From Bacteroidaceae bacterium (GTDB lineage Bacteria; Bacteroidota; Bacteroidia; Bacteroidales; Bacteroidaceae), in assembly GCA_017516885.1 (NCBI GenBank), contig JAFXAR010000041.1, forward strand, positions 1 through 46,227: a stretch of 46,227 nt of DNA. The letters run 5' to 3'. The translations under genes were made by a program, and so were the position numbers. How positions within the stretch are numbered: position 1 is the stretch's first letter; each line of letters starts with the position of its first letter. The notes beneath the pieces were generated by a model. That model did no database searches, was not told where the DNA came from, and saw nothing but the letters and a program-made list of their open reading frames with translations. Below, one piece after another: positions 20,596 through 28,414 of the stretch.

Positions 20596-21933
20596 ATGGC
20601 AAAAAGAGGTGTATTACTTATTGTTGATGACAACAAGAACATTCTATCGGCAGTGAAACTGCTTGCCGACGGATATTTCACAAAGGTGGTGACATTGTCC
20701 TCGCCAACGACACTCATTGCTGCAATTGCGGCCGAAAAGCCCGATGTCCTGCTGCTTGACATGAACTTCAATGCAGGAATAAACAGCGGCAACGAAGGCA
20801 TATACTGGCTAAGAGAGAGCATATCCAAATTTCCCGGGCTTAAGGTTGTGCTCTTTACCGCATACGCTGACATTGACCTTGCAGTGAAAGCAATGAAACA
20901 CGGAGCATTTGACTTTGTTGTAAAGCCCTGGAATAACGACAAGCTTATTGAGACACTGACAAACGCACTTGAAAGTTCAAAAGAGAAGGGAAAGAAGAGT
21001 GCATTGCCGGCGCGCAAGGAAATGCCGATGTTTTGGGGTTCAAGTGCCGAAATGGCACATATACGCACTGTTGTTGAGCGTGTAGCGGCAACAGATGCCA
21101 ATATACTTATAACCGGAGAGAATGGAACGGGAAAAGAGCTTCTTGCCCGCGAGATTCACCGTCTTTCAGCACGAAGCAGCAAGCCTATGGCAGCTCTTGA
21201 CATGGGCGCAATTCCTGAACAGCTTTTTGAAAGCGAGCTTTTTGGTCACAAGAAAGGTGCTTTTACCGATGCATACAGCGACCGCGACGGAAAAATGGTT
21301 GCAGCAAACGGCTCTACCCTCTTCATGGACGAGATTGGCAACCTTCCACTGCACCTTCAGGCAAAAATGCTCGCAGCGCTGCAAAACCGCACGGTTACTC
21401 CATTGGGAGGCAATATCTCTCAGGCAATAGACATACGGCTTGTGGCAGCAACCAACCGCAACCTCTTTGCGATGGCCGAAAACGGCGAGTTCAGGCAAGA
21501 CCTCCTCTTCCGCATAAATACCATTCACATAAACCTCCCGCCGCTAAGGAAACGCGCTGTGGATATTGTTCCGCTTGCCGGCATATTTCTTAAGCACTAC
21601 TGCGAGAAGTACGGCAAACAGCCAATAAGCATCTCCCAGAATGCTGCTGCAAGGCTCACTGCACACACTTTCGAGGGGAATATTCGTGAACTTCAGAATA
21701 TCATGGAAAAGGCGGTCATCATGTGCGATGGCAATGAGATTCAGCCGGAACATCTCCAGCTTTATGTTCCCAAAGGAAGCGTACAAAGCACAGCCTCAAC
21801 ACTTGAAGAGATGGAACGGGAGGCTATTGCAAATGCAATAGAATCATGCGGAGGCAACCTTTCTATGGTAGCTCAGAGATTAGGGATAACCCGGCAGACA
21901 TTGTACAACAAGATAAAGCGTTACGGATTATGA
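20596..21933 (+). CDS. Sigma-54-dependent response regulator (NtrC family)
   Basis: 445 residues. Receiver domain 1-125 with Asp11/Asp12, phosphoacceptor Asp55 (VLLLDM), Thr88 and Lys110. AAA+ domain about 145-385: Walker A GENGTGKE (174-181), the sigma-54 contact loop GAFTDA (221-226), Walker B TLFMDEIG (241-248) and the arginine-finger region (FRQDLLFRI). A Fis-type helix-turn-helix closes the protein (NLSMVAQRLGITRQTLYNKI). It opens promoters bound by sigma-54 RNA polymerase after phosphorylation. Its likely target is the promoter and inverted repeat before tolC, so the operon would be self-activating. The kinase gene overlaps its stop. Confidence 0.96.
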   Translation: MAKRGVLLIVDDNKNILSAVKLLADGYFTKVVTLSSPTTLIAAIAAEKPDVLLLDMNFNAGINSGNEGIYWLRESISKFPGLKVVLFTAYADIDLAVKAMKHGAFDFVVKPWNNDKLIETLTNALESSKEKGKKSALPARKEMPMFWGSSAEMAHIRTVVERVAATDANILITGENGTGKELLAREIHRLSARSSKPMAALDMGAIPEQLFESELFGHKKGAFTDAYSDRDGKMVAANGSTLFMDEIGNLPLHLQAKMLAALQNRTVTPLGGNISQAIDIRLVAATNRNLFAMAENGEFRQDLLFRINTIHINLPPLRKRAVDIVPLAGIFLKHYCEKYGKQPISISQNAAARLTAHTFEGNIRELQNIMEKAVIMCDGNEIQPEHLQLYVPKGSVQSTASTLEEMEREAIANAIESCGGNLSMVAQRLGITRQTLYNKIKRYGL

Positions 21934-23234
21934 ACAGACACAAGCTGCCGCTTTTCAGAATATTACTGCTTGTTGCCACGCTTGTGGCAGCAAGCGTGCT
22001 TTTTGGGTGGCTTGTGACACGCGGACTTAACGGATACCTCTTTCCGGCAGCAGTGCTGATTGCTGTTCTTGCATGGAAACTTGTGAATATCTACCGCAGA
22101 ATAGTAAAAAATCTTGACTTTATTTTCAATGCAGTACGAAACGATGATTTCTCATTCCGCTTCATAGACACTCCACGGCGCACCGAAAATGCCGTTGTAA
22201 ACTACTCTCTCAACAGAATAAAAGAGGTGCTTGATGAAGCTAAGGCGAACGCAAAGGAGAAAGAAAAATATTTTGAAACCATTATGGAGTGTGCCAACAT
22301 AGGCATAATCATTCTGCTTGACAACGGCACGGTAATGAAGCACAACAGCAAAGCTCTGGAACTGCTTGGCATTAAAATGCTCAGTCATGCCGACAGGCTG
22401 CGGCCAATATCGCAAAACCTTGCCGACACAATGCTTGCAATATCACCTATGGAGCAGAAAAGCGTATGCTTCACAACAGAGACCGGAGAGATAACACTGC
22501 TGCTGAACTGCTCTCTAATGCAGCATGCCGGACATAATCTGCGCGTAGTCTCCATTGAGAACATAAACCGCGAGCTTGATACTCAGGAAGGCCTTGCATG
22601 GGAGAAGCTTACACGCATACTTACCCATGAGATAATGAATTCGCTTGCACCCGTAACATCAATAAGCAATACGCTCTTGCATAATAAGGAAAATGCCGAA
22701 GTGCTGCAGCAAGGCCTTGAAACAATACACAATACAAGCGACAGGCTTATGCAGTTTGTCGATTCATTCCGCTCGATAACACGCATACCGCCTCCAAACA
22801 AAGCGCCATTTTACCTAACAGACCTATTCAGTGAAGCTGTTTCCCTTATTGATTCAGGAAACACAACGCTGGCATTCTCTGTCACTCCCGAAGATACCAT
22901 GATATATGCCGACAGAATACAGCTTCAGCAAGTTATTGTAAACCTTGTAAAGAATGCCGTTGAGGCCTGCGCATTGCGAGGCGGTGCGCAAAGTATTGAA
23001 CTTAACTCACATATTGCCCCCGATGAAAAGGTGCATATTGAGGTTAGCAACAGCGGCGGTGCAATACCGCCGGATGTAGCAGCAAACATTTTCACCCCAT
23101 TCTTTACCACAAAAAACGACGGTTCAGGAATTGGGCTTGCCGTATCAAAACAGATTATACGCCTGCATGGAGGAACAATAAGCCTTTCACAGAATAACGA
23201 TGAAAAGGTGACTTTCCTGATTATACTTGAATAA
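21930..23234 (+). CDS. Sensor histidine kinase, partner of the sigma-54 regulator
   Basis: 434 residues. The ATG overlaps the regulator's stop codon (ATGA at 21930-21933), which ties the pair together and decides the start. Two membrane helices (about 10-28 and 36-52) with almost nothing between them on the outer side, a short HAMP-like linker, a PAS-like domain (about 115-210), the phosphoacceptor His233 in LTHEIMNSLAP, and the ATPase domain with N-box VNLVKNAVEA and G-box GSGIGLAVSKQI. The tiny external loop suggests it senses something in the membrane or cytoplasm, as the ATPase-type NtrY kinases do. Its stop codon abuts the stop codon of the convergent dehydrogenase gene with no base between. 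Confidence 0.94.
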   Translation: MNRHKLPLFRILLLVATLVAASVLFGWLVTRGLNGYLFPAAVLIAVLAWKLVNIYRRIVKNLDFIFNAVRNDDFSFRFIDTPRRTENAVVNYSLNRIKEVLDEAKANAKEKEKYFETIMECANIGIIILLDNGTVMKHNSKALELLGIKMLSHADRLRPISQNLADTMLAISPMEQKSVCFTTETGEITLLLNCSLMQHAGHNLRVVSIENINRELDTQEGLAWEKLTRILTHEIMNSLAPVTSISNTLLHNKENAEVLQQGLETIHNTSDRLMQFVDSFRSITRIPPPNKAPFYLTDLFSEAVSLIDSGNTTLAFSVTPEDTMIYADRIQLQQVIVNLVKNAVEACALRGGAQSIELNSHIAPDEKVHIEVSNSGGAIPPDVAANIFTPFFTTKNDGSGIGLAVSKQIIRLHGGTISLSQNNDEKVTFLIILE

Positions 23235-24248
23235 TCAGCCATTCTCCTTCATAAGCCTTATGCCCCACTCGTAAATTCTATCAATATTGGGAACATCAAT
23301 GCCTAAACTGTGTGCAATATCATGAATAAAGCGCAAACCGTAGTTGAAATCCTCCTGAAAGTATCTGCTGCTTAAATCGGGCTGCCAGCCATTGCTGCTC
23401 TGTACCATTGGAGAGAGAATGCCTTTGAAGCTTTCAATTGAGGTTATCTTCCTTGTAAGCGCGCTTACGCTGCTGCTTTCGTAATATTCAAGTATTGGAG
23501 TGAGATAGCCGGGTGTTACAGGGAGTTTGTCGAGCAGCATGAACAGTTCCTTGTCAAGGGCTACAAGATTTTCCGATGCAGCATCGTCCCACTCTTCGTA
23601 GAAAAGGAAACGGCGGCCGTAATACACATTCTTGTTCCAGTTTGAAAAAAGTGAATAGAGACGTGCCGGATGAAGAATGGGATTACTGTTGGTGATACTT
23701 GCCTCGTAGTAATTCTTCAAGAGCTTTACCGGCCTGTCAAACAGTTCCTCAATAACCTTTCTGAAGGCTTCCTTGTCGCTGCAGTTCTCTACTGCTATAT
23801 TGTGTCCGCTCTTGTAGCCAAGCAGGTTCGCACTTTTCCCATACTCGCTCAGTCGGGCGATAAATGGCACTCTTTGGAATCCCCAAAGAGGTATATTGCT
23901 GCTGAATATCCGCAATGCCTCAAAAAAGAATCCTGTTGATGAAAATACACTGCCTACAAATGTGCCTTCCTTTACAAACGGAGAAATCTCCTCAAGCGTT
24001 CCCTTTATTGCATAGCCGGGAAGGCAAAGCAGCACAATGCCGGCATTTTCAACAGCAGCCCGGGCGTTATCGGTTACCAATCCGAGAGAGCCCTTGAGAC
24101 AAGCGCCTTCGGGAGTTGCAACAGCAAGTTCACTGCTCCACTCTGCCGGACGGCGGGTAAGTACATTCACATTAACTCCCTTTGCAGCTAAGTAACCGGC
24201 TATAACGTGTCCTAATGAACCTCCGCCGCAGATACATACTGTAATCAT
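23235..24248 (-). CDS. Opine (octopine/nopaline) dehydrogenase-family protein
   Basis: 337 residues. The Rossmann start has GGGSLGHVIAGYL with the glycine set at 8-13, a CLPGYA segment at about 75-80, and the C-terminal helical domain has NPILHP (189-194), which carries the conserved catalytic His of opine dehydrogenases. Those enzymes reductively join an amino compound to a 2-keto acid with NAD(P)H, producing N-carboxyalkyl products; relatives include glycerol-3-phosphate-type dehydrogenases. Its start overlaps the stop of the nucleotidyltransferase/PLP fusion by four bases, so it belongs to that pathway. Family is fairly clear; substrate is unknown. Confidence 0.85.
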   Translation of the reverse strand: MITVCICGGGSLGHVIAGYLAAKGVNVNVLTRRPAEWSSELAVATPEGACLKGSLGLVTDNARAAVENAGIVLLCLPGYAIKGTLEEISPFVKEGTFVGSVFSSTGFFFEALRIFSSNIPLWGFQRVPFIARLSEYGKSANLLGYKSGHNIAVENCSDKEAFRKVIEELFDRPVKLLKNYYEASITNSNPILHPARLYSLFSNWNKNVYYGRRFLFYEEWDDAASENLVALDKELFMLLDKLPVTPGYLTPILEYYESSSVSALTRKITSIESFKGILSPMVQSSNGWQPDLSSRYFQEDFNYGLRFIHDIAHSLGIDVPNIDRIYEWGIRLMKENG

Positions 24249-26062
24249 GCCCCTATTGCCTTGAGCGCTTCAATAAGGCGCTGGTTATCATTGTGGCTGC
24301 GCACCGCTATGCGCATATATTGCTTTCCGTCAAAGCCTGCCTTGCCCGAACAGTCGCGAAGCAATATATTATGCTCCTTGAGCATGCGCAGCACAAGGCC
24401 ATTTGCCGTATACGGAGGCAGAACCTCAACAAGGAAGTAGTTTGCCTGTGACGGCATCACGCGCAAGAAATCTATTGTGCGAAGCTGGTTGCCGAAGCTG
24501 TTGCGCTCCTCTATGAACTTATCGCACGCACGGGCATAATCGCCTTCGTACTTGCTGAATATCTGCATAAAGAACTCGCAGAAGGAGTTTATATTCCAGA
24601 TGCTCACCATCTTCTTTATCTGCGAGATTATTGCACTGTCGGCCGAACAGAGTATGCCCAATCTTATTCCAGGAACACCATAGCTTTTGCTTATTGATTT
24701 CATTACAAGCATGTGCGGATATTTCTCAAGCGTTGCATTGCTCAGCAATGTGTTCTGCCTCCAGCCGTCACTGAAGTCAACAAAGCTCTCGTCAACAATA
24801 AGGCGCATGTTCTGTTTCTCGCACCACTCAGCCAAGCGGCAAACATCGGCCAATGGGATGAAGTTTCCCGATGGATTATCGGGGTTTATGAGCAGCAGAT
24901 TGTCGGCCTTATTCTTGCCAAAGAAGGCAATGAGGTCGTCAGCAGTGTATCGGTACTCATTATTCTGCGGAACGAAAGTAACGAGCGATTCTTTGTCGCG
25001 GCGGTTGGGATACTCCTCAAATGTTGGGCGCACAATGCCTAACTTTCCCGGCAGAAGCTCCATAAGCGCCTTTATAAGTTCGGCTGCGCCGTTTCCGGGC
25101 ACAATGTAATCCTCTTTTATCCCCCAGCACTTGCTTGCCAATAGAGTATTTACCTTCATGCCCGATGGATACTCCTGAATAAGAATATTGAAGTTAGACT
25201 TCATTTCGTCCACTATCCTTGTCGATGCAAAATAAGGGTTCACAAGATAGCAGTAGTCGAGCATCTTGGGGAATCTCCAGTATCCGCCGAAACGGCCGTA
25301 ATACTTGTTAAGAATATCTTTCTCTTCGGCAAACAGGGCTTCGGCAATGTCAAGGTCCTGCTTGTCGTCAATCTCATACCACTTCTCATTGCTTACAGGC
25401 AGGGCCTTTAGCTCGCGGCTGTCGAGGAAAGTAATCACGCGGAGCACATTTTCATAATACTCGTTATTGCCCACCGCCTTTGTATATGCCTCAAGGAAGG
25501 GCACATACTTTGTACGGCTGAACTCCTTGGAGAACTTGTATATATTTATTGTCTTGTAGTATTTGTCAACATCATCGAAACAGAATGCAGCCTTTGGTAT
25601 AAAGTTAACAATGTTGTTCTCGTCGTCAATGCAAACAACAGTGCCGTCCATCCAGCTTTCATACTTTGCTACAAGGGCCAGGTTAGGCTGCTCGCTGCTG
25701 ACAAGAAGCTGCAGCATGGCATCATCGAACACAAGGTCCGATTCAATAAGCAGCGTATCATCCTGCTGCAACTGCTCCTTTGCCAATGCCAGCGAATATA
25801 TGTTGTTTGTCTTGTCGTATATGCTGTTTTCAACATACTCTATTTTCAGTGTATCACTGTATCTCTCCCCTATGTGCTCGATAAGCTTGCCGCCTTCGTA
25901 GCCCACTACTATAACAACACGCTCAAGATTCAGCTTGGACAGCTGCTTCAGCAAACGGTCTATTATGCATTCGCCGTTCATCTTTACCATGCATTTGGTA
26001 TTGTCCTTTGTAAACTCTCCAAGTCGCTTGCCCATTCCGGCAGCCAGTATGATTGCTTGCAT
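24245..26062 (-). CDS. Fused sugar/choline-type nucleotidyltransferase and PLP aminotransferase/decarboxylase
   Basis: 605 residues in two enzymes. Residues 1-240: LicC-like nucleotidyltransferase, with LAAGMGKRL (6-14), the Lys in TKCMVKMNG (22-30) and the metal Asp in ESDL (Asp109). Residues about 255-605: fold-type I PLP enzyme of the HisC/CobD branch, with NPDNPSG (393-399), Asp424 in IVDES, the PLP lysine Lys459 in SISKSYGVPGIRLG, and a substrate carboxylate Arg in YMRIAVR (Arg584). LicC makes CDP-choline; CobD-type enzymes decarboxylate threonine phosphate or serine phosphate. Joined, they suggest in-line synthesis of a CDP-activated amino alcohol such as CDP-ethanolamine. A plain aminotransferase acting on another substrate is possible. 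The LicD gene is nine bases upstream. Confidence 0.88.
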   Translation of the reverse strand: MQAIILAAGMGKRLGEFTKDNTKCMVKMNGECIIDRLLKQLSKLNLERVVIVVGYEGGKLIEHIGERYSDTLKIEYVENSIYDKTNNIYSLALAKEQLQQDDTLLIESDLVFDDAMLQLLVSSEQPNLALVAKYESWMDGTVVCIDDENNIVNFIPKAAFCFDDVDKYYKTINIYKFSKEFSRTKYVPFLEAYTKAVGNNEYYENVLRVITFLDSRELKALPVSNEKWYEIDDKQDLDIAEALFAEEKDILNKYYGRFGGYWRFPKMLDYCYLVNPYFASTRIVDEMKSNFNILIQEYPSGMKVNTLLASKCWGIKEDYIVPGNGAAELIKALMELLPGKLGIVRPTFEEYPNRRDKESLVTFVPQNNEYRYTADDLIAFFGKNKADNLLLINPDNPSGNFIPLADVCRLAEWCEKQNMRLIVDESFVDFSDGWRQNTLLSNATLEKYPHMLVMKSISKSYGVPGIRLGILCSADSAIISQIKKMVSIWNINSFCEFFMQIFSKYEGDYARACDKFIEERNSFGNQLRTIDFLRVMPSQANYFLVEVLPPYTANGLVLRMLKEHNILLRDCSGKAGFDGKQYMRIAVRSHNDNQRLIEALKAIGA

Positions 26063-26071
26063 ATCTTATAT

Positions 26072-26857
26072 TTAAATTTTATAGGCTTGTGAATTATGAT
26101 GTGAAATCTGCTTGTCGGCAGGAGGCAGTGTCATATAATCGCCATAAAGCGCGCTCAGGTAGACATCGCATTCTATGGGAGCACGGAACTCCTTTCCTTC
26201 AAAGGGAATCATCTTGTAATTGTCAAATATCTCACGCGGAAAGACCTCCTTTTCGGCACAGCGGGAATATGAGCTGTAAACCTTGACGCTGTTGTCATAG
26301 GCACACTCCGTTGCACTCTTCTTTATTGCCTTGAAAAGGGACTTTAGACTGAAAGGAAGCAATATAAACTTTGTTGCCGCAAGACGCAGCTTGCGGGCAA
26401 AAGTCATCTGAGGAAGGAACACGGAATTCTTCACATGCATATAACGGCGCAGTTCTCCGCAGCGGTGCGCCTGCTTTCTGCCAGCATAGCCGTCAAGAGG
26501 AAAAATATCAATATATACACCAAAAACATCATGCTTGAAGTGGAACTCCTTTACAATTGTCCCTTTGCGGTAAACCTTTGCAAAGGCAACTCTGTAATGC
26601 GGGTCATTTTCATTGCAAACTGCAACATTGCTGTTTCCTTTGCTGTTATATGTATTCAGAAATTTTTCATAGTCGGGGCGTGGCATGTGTATGTCAATGT
26701 CATCGTCCCATGGAATATATCCTTTATGGCGCACAGCACCCAACAGTGTACCGTATGCAAGGAAATAGCGAAGCCCGTGCTTTTCACAGAAAGCTGCAAC
26801 ATCGCACAATATATCAAGCTGAATGCCTTTAAGCTCCTTTTCTTGTATTGCTTCCAT
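26072..26857 (-). CDS. LicD-family phosphoryl-amino-alcohol transferase
   Basis: 261 residues. The LicD core is clear: YFLAYGTLLGAVRHKGYIPW (31-50) followed by DDDIDIHMPR (51-60), whose Asp cluster binds metal and catalyses transfer. LicD proteins move phosphocholine or related groups from CDP carriers to cell-surface sugars. It fits directly with the nucleotidyltransferase half of the next gene. One base separates its start from the stop of the DUF1015 gene, so the two are translationally coupled. No signal peptide: it would act in the cytoplasm on lipid-linked precursors. Confidence 0.93.
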   Translation of the reverse strand: MEAIQEKELKGIQLDILCDVAAFCEKHGLRYFLAYGTLLGAVRHKGYIPWDDDIDIHMPRPDYEKFLNTYNSKGNSNVAVCNENDPHYRVAFAKVYRKGTIVKEFHFKHDVFGVYIDIFPLDGYAGRKQAHRCGELRRYMHVKNSVFLPQMTFARKLRLAATKFILLPFSLKSLFKAIKKSATECAYDNSVKVYSSYSRCAEKEVFPREIFDNYKMIPFEGKEFRAPIECDVYLSALYGDYMTLPPADKQISHHNSQAYKI

Positions 26858-26858
26858 A

Positions 26859-28106
26859 TCAGGACAATTTATGTATCACTAACCCTGAACGCAGTTTGGG
26901 TTCAAACCAGGTTGTCTTAGGCGGCATTATATTGCCTGTGTCGGCAATGTCTACAAGCTGCTTCATTGAAACTGGATAGAGTGCCAATGCGGCCTTCATT
27001 TCTCCGCTGTCGACACGCCTTTCCAGCTCATGCAGCCCGCGTATGCCGCCTACAAAGTCAATGCGGTCGCTGGTGCGCAAGTCCTTTATCCCAAGAATTC
27101 CGTCAAGTATTATATTCGATGAAATTGTAACGTCAAGAACACCTATCGGGTCATTTTCATCGTATGTTCCCGCCTTTGCCGTGAGACTGTACCATTTTCC
27201 GGCAAGGTAGAGCGAAAAATTATGCAGACACGAAGGCCTGTAAGCCTCATCGCCCTTCTCCTCAACAATAAAATATTCAGCAACAGCTGCCAGAAATTCA
27301 CTATCCGAAAGTCCGTTCAAGTCCCTTATAACACGGTTGTAGTCCATTATGGTAAGTTCGTTCACCGGGAAACAGACTGCCATAAAGTAATTATATTCTT
27401 CATCGCCACGATGAAAAGGGTTGTTTTCGGCCTTCTCCTTGCCCACCAGCGCTGCCGCAGCCGAACGGTGATGCCCATCGGCAATATACAGCGACGGCAT
27501 TTTCCCAAACTCCTCAGTTATGCAGGAAATATCGTTCTCGTCATCAATAATCCATAGCCTGTTGTGCAAATTTCCGGGCTGCGCCACAAAATCATATTCG
27601 GGCTGCAGTGATGAATATTTCTCCACTATTTGCGAAAGACGGATATTATCGGGGTAAGCAAAGAACACAGGCTCAATATTGGCATCATTCAACCGAACAT
27701 GCCTCATGCGGTCCTCTTCCTTGTCCTTGCGTGTAAGTTCGTGCTTCTTTATTGCACCGTTCAAATAATCGCTTACCGACGCACATACCACGAAACCATA
27801 AAATGTGCGGCCGTTCATTGTCTGGGCATAAAGATAGTAGAGCTCTTTTTCGTCCTGCCTGAGCCACCCCCTCTCCTGGAACTTGCCGAAATTCTCAACA
27901 GCCTTTCTGTATACAAGCGGAGAGTGCTCGTCCGTCCCGGCCGGAAAATCAATCTCAGGACGTATTATATGGTAAAGCGACATCTCATTGTCGCCGGCTG
28001 CAATACGCACCTCATCAGAACTCATCACATCATAAGGCAAGCTCTGGACGTATTCTGCAATATTTTTGGGCGGACGCAGTCCGCGAAAAGGTTTAACTAT
28101 AGCCAT
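26859..28106 (-). CDS. DUF1015 protein, possible kinase of free serine
   Basis: 415 residues. DUF1015 family by its opening MAIVKPFRGLRPPKN and by the later motifs SLPYDVMSSDE, ADGHHRSAAA (about 212-221) and the closing PPKTTWFEPKLRSGL. The ADGHHR segment resembles the active site of ParB/SerK-like enzymes; archaeal SerK phosphorylates free serine. From memory, not verified here, some DUF1015 proteins have been linked to serine phosphorylation. As the first gene of this operon it could supply phosphoserine to the PLP domain. An upstream ATG six codons earlier is less likely, since the conserved family start is at 28106. A TATCTTTG box on the minus strand (28172-28165) precedes it. Confidence 0.88.
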   Translation of the reverse strand: MAIVKPFRGLRPPKNIAEYVQSLPYDVMSSDEVRIAAGDNEMSLYHIIRPEIDFPAGTDEHSPLVYRKAVENFGKFQERGWLRQDEKELYYLYAQTMNGRTFYGFVVCASVSDYLNGAIKKHELTRKDKEEDRMRHVRLNDANIEPVFFAYPDNIRLSQIVEKYSSLQPEYDFVAQPGNLHNRLWIIDDENDISCITEEFGKMPSLYIADGHHRSAAAALVGKEKAENNPFHRGDEEYNYFMAVCFPVNELTIMDYNRVIRDLNGLSDSEFLAAVAEYFIVEEKGDEAYRPSCLHNFSLYLAGKWYSLTAKAGTYDENDPIGVLDVTISSNIILDGILGIKDLRTSDRIDFVGGIRGLHELERRVDSGEMKAALALYPVSMKQLVDIADTGNIMPPKTTWFEPKLRSGLVIHKLS

Positions 28107-28414
28107 ATTATTGTATATCAACATAATACAGAATTATTCTGTAATATATTTTTGTGCAATAGTACAAAGATAATACTTTTCGGGCAGTTTTTTTATTTTT
28201 TCACAACTTATCTCTTTGCTACATAATCAGGGAAGCGGCTTTTTAGAAGTTTCCAAATAAAGCATTATCACTTTTTTGCCTGCTATTTTTTTAAAAATTG
28301 TCAATTTCATCTATAATATTCAACATTTTACAGATAATAATTGTAATTATGAATTAAAATTCCTATCTTGCGACTAGGAAATAATTTGTGACAGTTTCTA
28401 ATAAACTCAATTCT
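28107..28414. promoter_or_regulatory. Divergent promoter region
   Basis: This gap holds the start regions of two divergent units. On the minus strand a TATCTTTG box (28172-28165) serves the DUF1015 operon, with no good -33 partner seen. On the plus strand TTG (28341-28343) and TATCTTG (28364-28370) spaced by 20 bases serve the START-like gene. The rest is AT-rich with nothing else recognisable. Confidence 0.55.

Follow-up and report, generated by a model that had tools for sequence, protein, structure and literature searches.

The 46,227-nucleotide window analysed here, the whole stretch of DNA from a gut bacterium, contains four neighbouring genes on its minus strand, and the question they raise is what group they make and how it is attached. 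The reading developed here, to which we give just short of an even chance, is that the products of the operon build an N-carboxyalkylated phosphoethanolamine and attach it. The operon is headed by a DUF1015 gene (26859–28106; PF06245, 7e-109), followed by the gene for a LicD-family phosphotransferase (26072–26857; PF04991, 1.5e-47), the candidate transferase of the activated group; the gene for a 605-residue nucleotidyltransferase/PLP fusion (24245–26062; NTP_transf_3 at residues 3–135, Aminotran_1_2 at residues 316–600); and an opine-dehydrogenase-like gene, here OPD (23235–24248; Octopine_DH PF02317, 4e-28). An earlier sequence-only reading had placed these four genes on one strand, two of their junctions being short gaps and the third an overlap, and this layout was confirmed: 1 base separates DUF1015 from licD and 9 bases separate licD from the fusion gene, while the fusion gene and OPD overlap by 4 bases. 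For DUF1015 a start at 28106 is to be preferred to that of the longer predicted ORF at 28124: in the sister locus L004 the gene begins at the equivalent residue, and the two DNA sequences are similar from 28106 onward. The sister locus keeps the four-gene block at 73–75% DNA identity, together with two opposite-strand genes beyond it. Also on the minus strand, 66 bases ahead of the DUF1015 start, TATCTTTG (28165–28172) is a candidate -7-like element, so called from what we take to be the Bacteroidota -7 consensus, TAnnTTTG. At its other end the block lies tail to tail with a plus-strand ORF (21846–23234) that is by eye a histidine kinase.

A contig scan for relatives of the fusion found 290, of which the best 80 were analysed; these come from Prevotella, Bacteroidaceae, other Bacteroidales and Fibrobacter. 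Loci L001–L003, which belong to the window's own genome, were excluded from the comparisons among relatives, and residue invariance within the fusion refers to the 35 sequences aligned out of 81. Distant relatives are few: of 395 genomes sampled across the phylum, only 2 have one at E 1e-60, the window's own and a second genome whose fusion (locus L085, 35% identity) overlaps a LicD gene, with no reductase adjoining it. In a scan of 126 neighbour proteins from 18 loci the families met most often were LicD (12), acyltransferase (11), glycosyltransferase 2 (8) and polysaccharide biosynthesis (6), which identifies these as glycan loci.

The PLP half of the fusion (residues 260–605; 24248–25285) is of CobD type. 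In profile comparison with solved structures it matches 6oux (3e-55), then 3ftb (2e-37), which bears the name histidinol-phosphate aminotransferase, CobD 1lc5 (4e-33) and HisC 8bj1 (6e-24). The best NCBIfam model is likewise CobD (TIGR01140), with HisC-type models next, at a score of 172.4 bits against a curated equivalog cut-off of 290.55, so that the PLP half is not filed as CobD itself. K459, R569 and R584 are invariant in 35/35 fusions aligned, and they align with K216, R323 and R337 of CobD, which we take to be the PLP lysine and the carboxylate arginines; the closest family, the lysine and the arginines are thus those of a CobD/serine-phosphate decarboxylase. The structure 6oux is presumably that of SMUL_1544, an enzyme which we take to be active on serine phosphate and which is reportedly linked to norcobamide, and the closest solved relatives of the PLP half are accordingly SMUL_1544-like and CobD decarboxylases (6oux, 1lc5). 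PMC7755780 gives SMUL_1544 the same protein name that 6oux carries; a search of the open-access literature found no paper giving the SMUL_1544 reaction. Cj1436, which according to PMC12409886 decarboxylates serine phosphate to ethanolamine phosphate for the capsule of C. jejuni, is a related kind of enzyme, likened to the PLP half by its described function. The SMUL_1544-like, CobD and Cj1436 enzymes are all free-standing, whereas the PLP half here is fused to a cytidylyltransferase. The profile matches support the earlier proposal of a CobD-type enzyme as against a transaminase acting on unrelated sugars, and a sugar transaminase identity was rejected or given less weight on both the NCBIfam and the solved-structure matches.

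The nearest solved structures to the nucleotidyltransferase half (residues 1–240; 25343–26062, minus strand) are 6pd1, PntC of T. denticola (5e-12), and 1jyk, LicC of S. pneumoniae (3e-10). R13, K23, E107 and D109 are invariant in 35/35 fusions aligned, R13 and K23 aligning with Arg15 and Lys25 of PntC, so that the sequence relation, the arginine, the lysine and the metal-site residues all indicate a LicC/PntC cytidylyltransferase; a nucleotidyltransferase giving CDP-ethanolamine is what had been proposed earlier. E107 aligns with PntC Glu104, where LicC has Asp105. In PMC6697681 Glu104 is described as contacting the primary amine of AEP, and the same glutamate is present in the reductase-free L085. 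The PntC-AEPT fusion of Treponema denticola, Tde1415 (6pd1; PMC6697681), likewise joins a cytidylyltransferase to a PLP enzyme, and it has in common with the nucleotidyltransferase half both the ESD motif containing the primary-amine glutamate and the catalytic Arg and Lys positions; but the PLP enzyme there belongs to class V and serves a phosphonate pathway as AEP aminotransferase, while the PLP half here is class I/II and CobD-type. A phosphonate (Pnt) pathway was rejected or given less weight, since the genome, which is 86.8% complete, gave no PEP mutase over the cut-off and one partial match only (28.7 of 31.5 bits). The likeliest reading of the fusion is that one protein takes phosphoserine to CDP-ethanolamine, and CDP-ethanolamine is probably its product.

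OPD gives a match to octopine dehydrogenase (9e-29) and a weak one to N-(1-D-carboxylethyl)-L-norvaline dehydrogenase (2.5e-7), and its Octopine_DH domain scores 98.7 bits against a cut-off of 30. H193, R295 and D300, invariant in 51/51 sequences, align with His212, Arg324 and an aspartate of octopine dehydrogenase (OcDH) that we take to be number 329; both the domain and the His-Arg-Asp residues are therefore those of an opine dehydrogenase, which strengthens the earlier assignment. PMC2924402 describes His212, Arg324 and a His-Asp relay in octopine dehydrogenase of Pecten maximus (3c7a), which has family and His/Arg/Asp residues in common with OPD. In OcDH the guanidinium of arginine is held by Glu142 (PMC2924402), a position occupied in OPD by Q125 (50/51) and followed by R126 (51/51); this replacement suggests that the amine substrate of OPD differs from arginine, and R126 is a possible phosphate contact. 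In relatives the same slot may be occupied instead by a reductase of the OCD/mu-crystallin type (here OCD), for which PF02423 is over its cut-off of 24 bits in the four genes scanned (83.8–104.8 bits). The nearest solved structures of OCD are pyrroline-2-carboxylate reductase 6t3e and 4m54, the latter presumably SbnB; this is the branch to which OCD belongs, although SbnB and imine-reductase models all score below their curated cut-offs, and here it is an alternative occupant of the OPD slot. The OPD and OCD families have in common that they reduce imines formed between an amine and an oxo acid, so N-carboxyalkylation is likely to be their common function, and we consider it moderately probable that this is what the slot reductase does. 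N-(1-carboxyethyl) derivatives of phosphoethanolamine, cited in the earlier reading, are reported to occur in some Proteus O-antigens; a search of the open-access literature found no Proteus O-antigen with N-carboxyethyl phosphoethanolamine.

The LicD protein belongs to the LicD family (PF04991, 163 bits against a cut-off of 22.6), and against the Mf1 model it scores 89.8 bits, below the cut-off of 225. LicD homologues reach a density of 1.68 per 10 kb in the first 1.5 kb from the fusion and at most 0.12 beyond 3 kb; 38 of the 50 around the fusion lie within 1.5 kb, and this supports the linkage of LicD with the fusion that had been proposed earlier. The expected co-occurrence held for LicD in part: it lies within 3.5 kb of the fusion in 36/61 full-flank loci, and none was detected there in the other 25/61. 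In three LicD-free loci (L054, L032 and L021) a Glyphos_transf protein, of a CDP-donor family, stands next to the reductase, and for the proteins that follow the reductase in L073 and L076 there was no match in Pfam. A protein of the Sulfatase family, which we take to have the fold of EptA-type phosphoethanolamine transferases, lies close downstream of the reductase in two LicD-free Prevotella loci (L046:11782-13569, L048:13031-14824). LicD would probably be the enzyme that transfers the activated group, and we hold this with some confidence. According to PMC11982090, Mf1, a LicD-family protein, moves P-Etn from CDP-Etn; the Lic-1 pathway (LicA-LicC-LicD) and Mf1 have CDP activation and LicD-type transfer in common with the operon here, but Lic-1 has a choline kinase, which this operon lacks, and the group here would instead be made from serine.

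The proposed pathway would thus begin with phosphorylation of free serine to O-phosphoserine by DUF1015, in a genome with no SerA found, followed by decarboxylation of phosphoserine to phosphoethanolamine by the PLP half of the fusion and reaction of phosphoethanolamine with CTP at the nucleotidyltransferase half to yield CDP-ethanolamine. OPD, or in relatives the OCD-type reductase in the same position, would then join the amine to a 2-oxo acid, for which pyruvate is the plain guess, and reduce the imine with NAD(P)H, and LicD would move the resulting group to a surface glycan or glycolipid. Because the nucleotidyltransferase pocket keeps the primary-amine glutamate, the reductase may act on CDP-ethanolamine; that this residue is found in fusions with OPD, with OCD or with neither (L085) weakly favours cytidylyl transfer before N-alkylation. 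The interpretation offered by the sequence-only reading survives in part: the CobD-type PLP half, the PntC/LicC-type nucleotidyltransferase half, the OPD residues and the LicD linkage agree with it, and DUF1015 as a general operon member does not. It is extended by an OPD/OCD swap and a serA/DUF1015 rearrangement, which, like gene content, gene order and conserved residues, are observed directly.

Among the best 80 of the 290 relatives, the gene directly downstream of the fusion is OPD in 50, OCD in 22 and neither in 5, while 3 loci end at the contig edge, so that one or the other reductase occupies this position in 72/77 loci; in the available sequence no locus has both. The arrangement exceeds chance, as both this figure and the drop in LicD density away from the fusion show. 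Of the co-occurrence that had been expected of all four families, the pairing of fusion with reductase therefore stood, and DUF1015 proved to be an operon member only here and in L004. The five loci with neither reductase directly downstream are L020, L027, L029, L034 and L044, and in L029 and L034 an OPD-like gene lies about 6.4 kb off on the opposite strand. In L044 (12321-14020), an OCD gene lies directly behind a second, free-standing LicC/PntC-like nucleotidyltransferase, 2.2 kb downstream of the fusion; since it follows a separate nucleotidyltransferase, this reductase may belong to a different pathway.

On a quick tree of the 81 fusions, with 25 open forks, the OPD/OCD labels require 21 changes, of which the starred branches alone force 16; recombination within the fusion could inflate the count of 21. 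Shuffling the labels of the 22 OCD rows gave a mean of 19.7 changes, so the label is unclustered on the fusion tree. Replacement of exactly one gene can be seen in L054 and L055, which show 93.5% identity in a 3.9-kb stretch that ends with the fusion and 91% in the 8.0 kb past the reductase, with no alignment between these flanks, and the same pattern is found in L007/L008, L030/L031 and L069/L078. Comparison of 67 of the 72 loci gave 19 OPD/OCD pairs with colinear flanks and none with an aligned reductase; the two same-type pairs are no control, because their alignments run unsplit through the shared reductase. Such in-place swaps occur in Fibrobacter, Bacteroidaceae and Prevotella. Within each reductase family, sequence identities track those of the fusion, with a Spearman coefficient of 0.44 for 51 OPD and 0.74 for 23 OCD (including that of L044), and 0/999 permutations were as high. 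Full-length homology of OPD and OCD was rejected on the hhalign result, a probability of 3.4% over 71 columns of the nucleotide-binding region only. The simplest reading is of two old alleles that travel with lineages and are swapped locally, and that both families hold imine reductases argues for N-carboxyalkylation and for a long-lived choice between two alleles. The swap would put two alternative decorations in a lineage, possibly opposite stereoisomers or the products of different oxo acids, and diversifying selection on a surface antigen may lie behind it.

DUF1015 calls for separate treatment. A single copy was found in the window's genome, and the gene is present in 114/119 genomes of the order, once in each except G434, which has two fragments at contig ends; exactly one copy was found in 20/20 fusion-bearing genomes checked. 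It falls within the fusion-locus sequence of only 1/80 relatives (best 80 of 290), the sister L004, and its status as a regular operon member was rejected on this count. The usual order in relatives is serC-serA-DUF1015-yigZ. Across the order, within flanks of 1.5 kb, serA is beside DUF1015 or one small ORF away in 23/30 loci; an ORF of 130–170 aa lies between the two in 8/30 (L087, L094, L100, L102, L104, L107, L110 and L111). In fusion-bearing Bacteroidota genomes (17 of the 20 fusion genomes, the other three, from Fibrobacter, being read separately) serA adjoins DUF1015 in 14/17, with yigZ then on the same strand in 12; the exceptions are the sister, the genome of L021, where serA is 2.2 kb away, and that of L041. 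The serA-DUF1015 pair is gone from between serC and yigZ in the window's genome, where serC and yigZ overlap by 1 base, and in the sister genome, where 2 bases separate them; in both, DUF1015 heads the operon that contains licD. No SerA was found in the window's genome, where the best match is 25% identical and PdxB-like (419 of 434 bits), nor, at 1e-20, in the sister genome or in the three Fibrobacter genomes, where DUF1015 is located elsewhere. SerC is present in the window's genome (453 bits against a cut-off of 253), which fits vitamin B6 synthesis. SerB (TIGR00338) is missing in 4/9 genomes, namely the window's, the sister's, G521 and G524; as the last two also lack it, yet keep SerA, SerB loss as something special to the window/sister lineage was rejected. 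At 86.8% completeness the absence of SerA and SerB from the window's genome is no proof of loss.

That the serA-DUF1015 pair is gone and that no SerA was found make DUF1015 a candidate serine kinase: if the fusion needs phosphoserine, the cell must produce it by some other means, for which DUF1015 is the evident candidate. Its DGHHR box resembles, in our assumption, the ParB/SerK type. The comparison with solved structures gave no relevant match up to E 10 and no solved kinase, and thus no sequence relation to a solved SerK/SbnI-like kinase, and no open-access paper on DUF1015 as a kinase was found. The earlier suggestion that DUF1015 forms phosphoserine consequently gains from the serA neighbourhood in relatives and the missing SerA here and in the sister, and loses from the finding of no kinase homology and from an operon position confined to these two genomes; we regard the assignment as a free serine kinase as evenly balanced. 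DUF1015 may instead stand outside the pathway, as a near-universal gene of the order that landed here when serA was lost, an account to which we give somewhat less than even weight. Its near-universality, its place in the operon in 1/80 relatives (best 80 of 290) and the search that found no kinase homology all suit such a bystander; but DUF1015 is the first gene, 1 base from licD, of a block common to both carriers, and serA, its usual neighbour, was found in neither carrier genome.

The remaining steps can also be read otherwise. The fusion might make CDP-ethanolamine and LicD transfer it as plain phosphoethanolamine, with the reductase acting on a different amine of the same surface glycan, one carried by an amino sugar or an amino acid. 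A fusion and LicD do occur without a reductase in L085, 5/77 relatives (best 80 of 290) have no reductase directly downstream, and Providencia O-antigens contain N-carboxyethyl lysine and alanopine (PMC10609480); yet the reductase is tied to the fusion (72/77, best 80 of 290) and to no one sugar gene, and single proteins of about 600 aa join OPD to LicD in L068 (10818-12614) and L081 (10869-12656), so that we think this account rather unlikely. Less likely still, with the other steps unchanged, the PLP half could act on threonine phosphate to give aminopropanol phosphate, or transaminate dihydroxyacetone phosphate to serinol phosphate: true CobD (1lc5) is among its closest solved relatives, HisC-type transaminases come after, and PMC12409886 names a serinol-phosphate enzyme, Cj1437, beside Cj1436, but 6oux scores far above CobD, and a DUF1015 that adjoins serA in relatives and heads the fusion operon here points to phosphoserine. 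It is very improbable that faulty metagenome assembly or an unreliable tree merely simulates the OPD/OCD alternation; 79/80 loci are titled as MAGs or uncultured genomes and the tree is a quick one, but the exact replacement of one gene lies inside contigs with both flanks matching, in several genera, and both reductase families show variation that parallels the fusion's.

If the N-carboxyalkylated phosphoethanolamine reading is right, these genes are linked to an opine-type phosphoethanolamine decoration, for which no open-access paper on such genes was found; a search of titles and abstract openings in the open-access literature returned no paper on the fusion, on an opine dehydrogenase with LicD, or on the reductase swap. 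It would also mean that a single protein leads from phosphoserine to CDP-ethanolamine, would give DUF1015, widespread as that gene is in the order (114/119 genomes), a function that can be tested, and would offer a clear example, at surface-glycan loci, of allelic exchange between two unrelated enzymes. More tentatively, and as something we would put well short of probable, non-homologous N-carboxyalkylating reductases could be interchangeable alleles across Bacteroidales and Fibrobacter that give different, for example mirror-image, opine phosphoethanolamines and so form a one-gene serotype switch, with DUF1015 a further free serine kinase family moved into the operon on loss of serA. A cultured carrier exists in Prevotella ruminicola KHT3 (L025), the sole cultured strain among the 80 loci.

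Two minor observations were made in passing. In the three Fibrobacter loci L156, L157 and L158, DUF1015 is extended at its N terminus by about 200 residues, which look membrane-bound. In the window's own genome, just before serC on contig C48 (L159:4194-5674), there are two ORFs in tandem, one of 228 aa and one of 232 aa, whose first 50 residues are near-identical, with a signal-like start.
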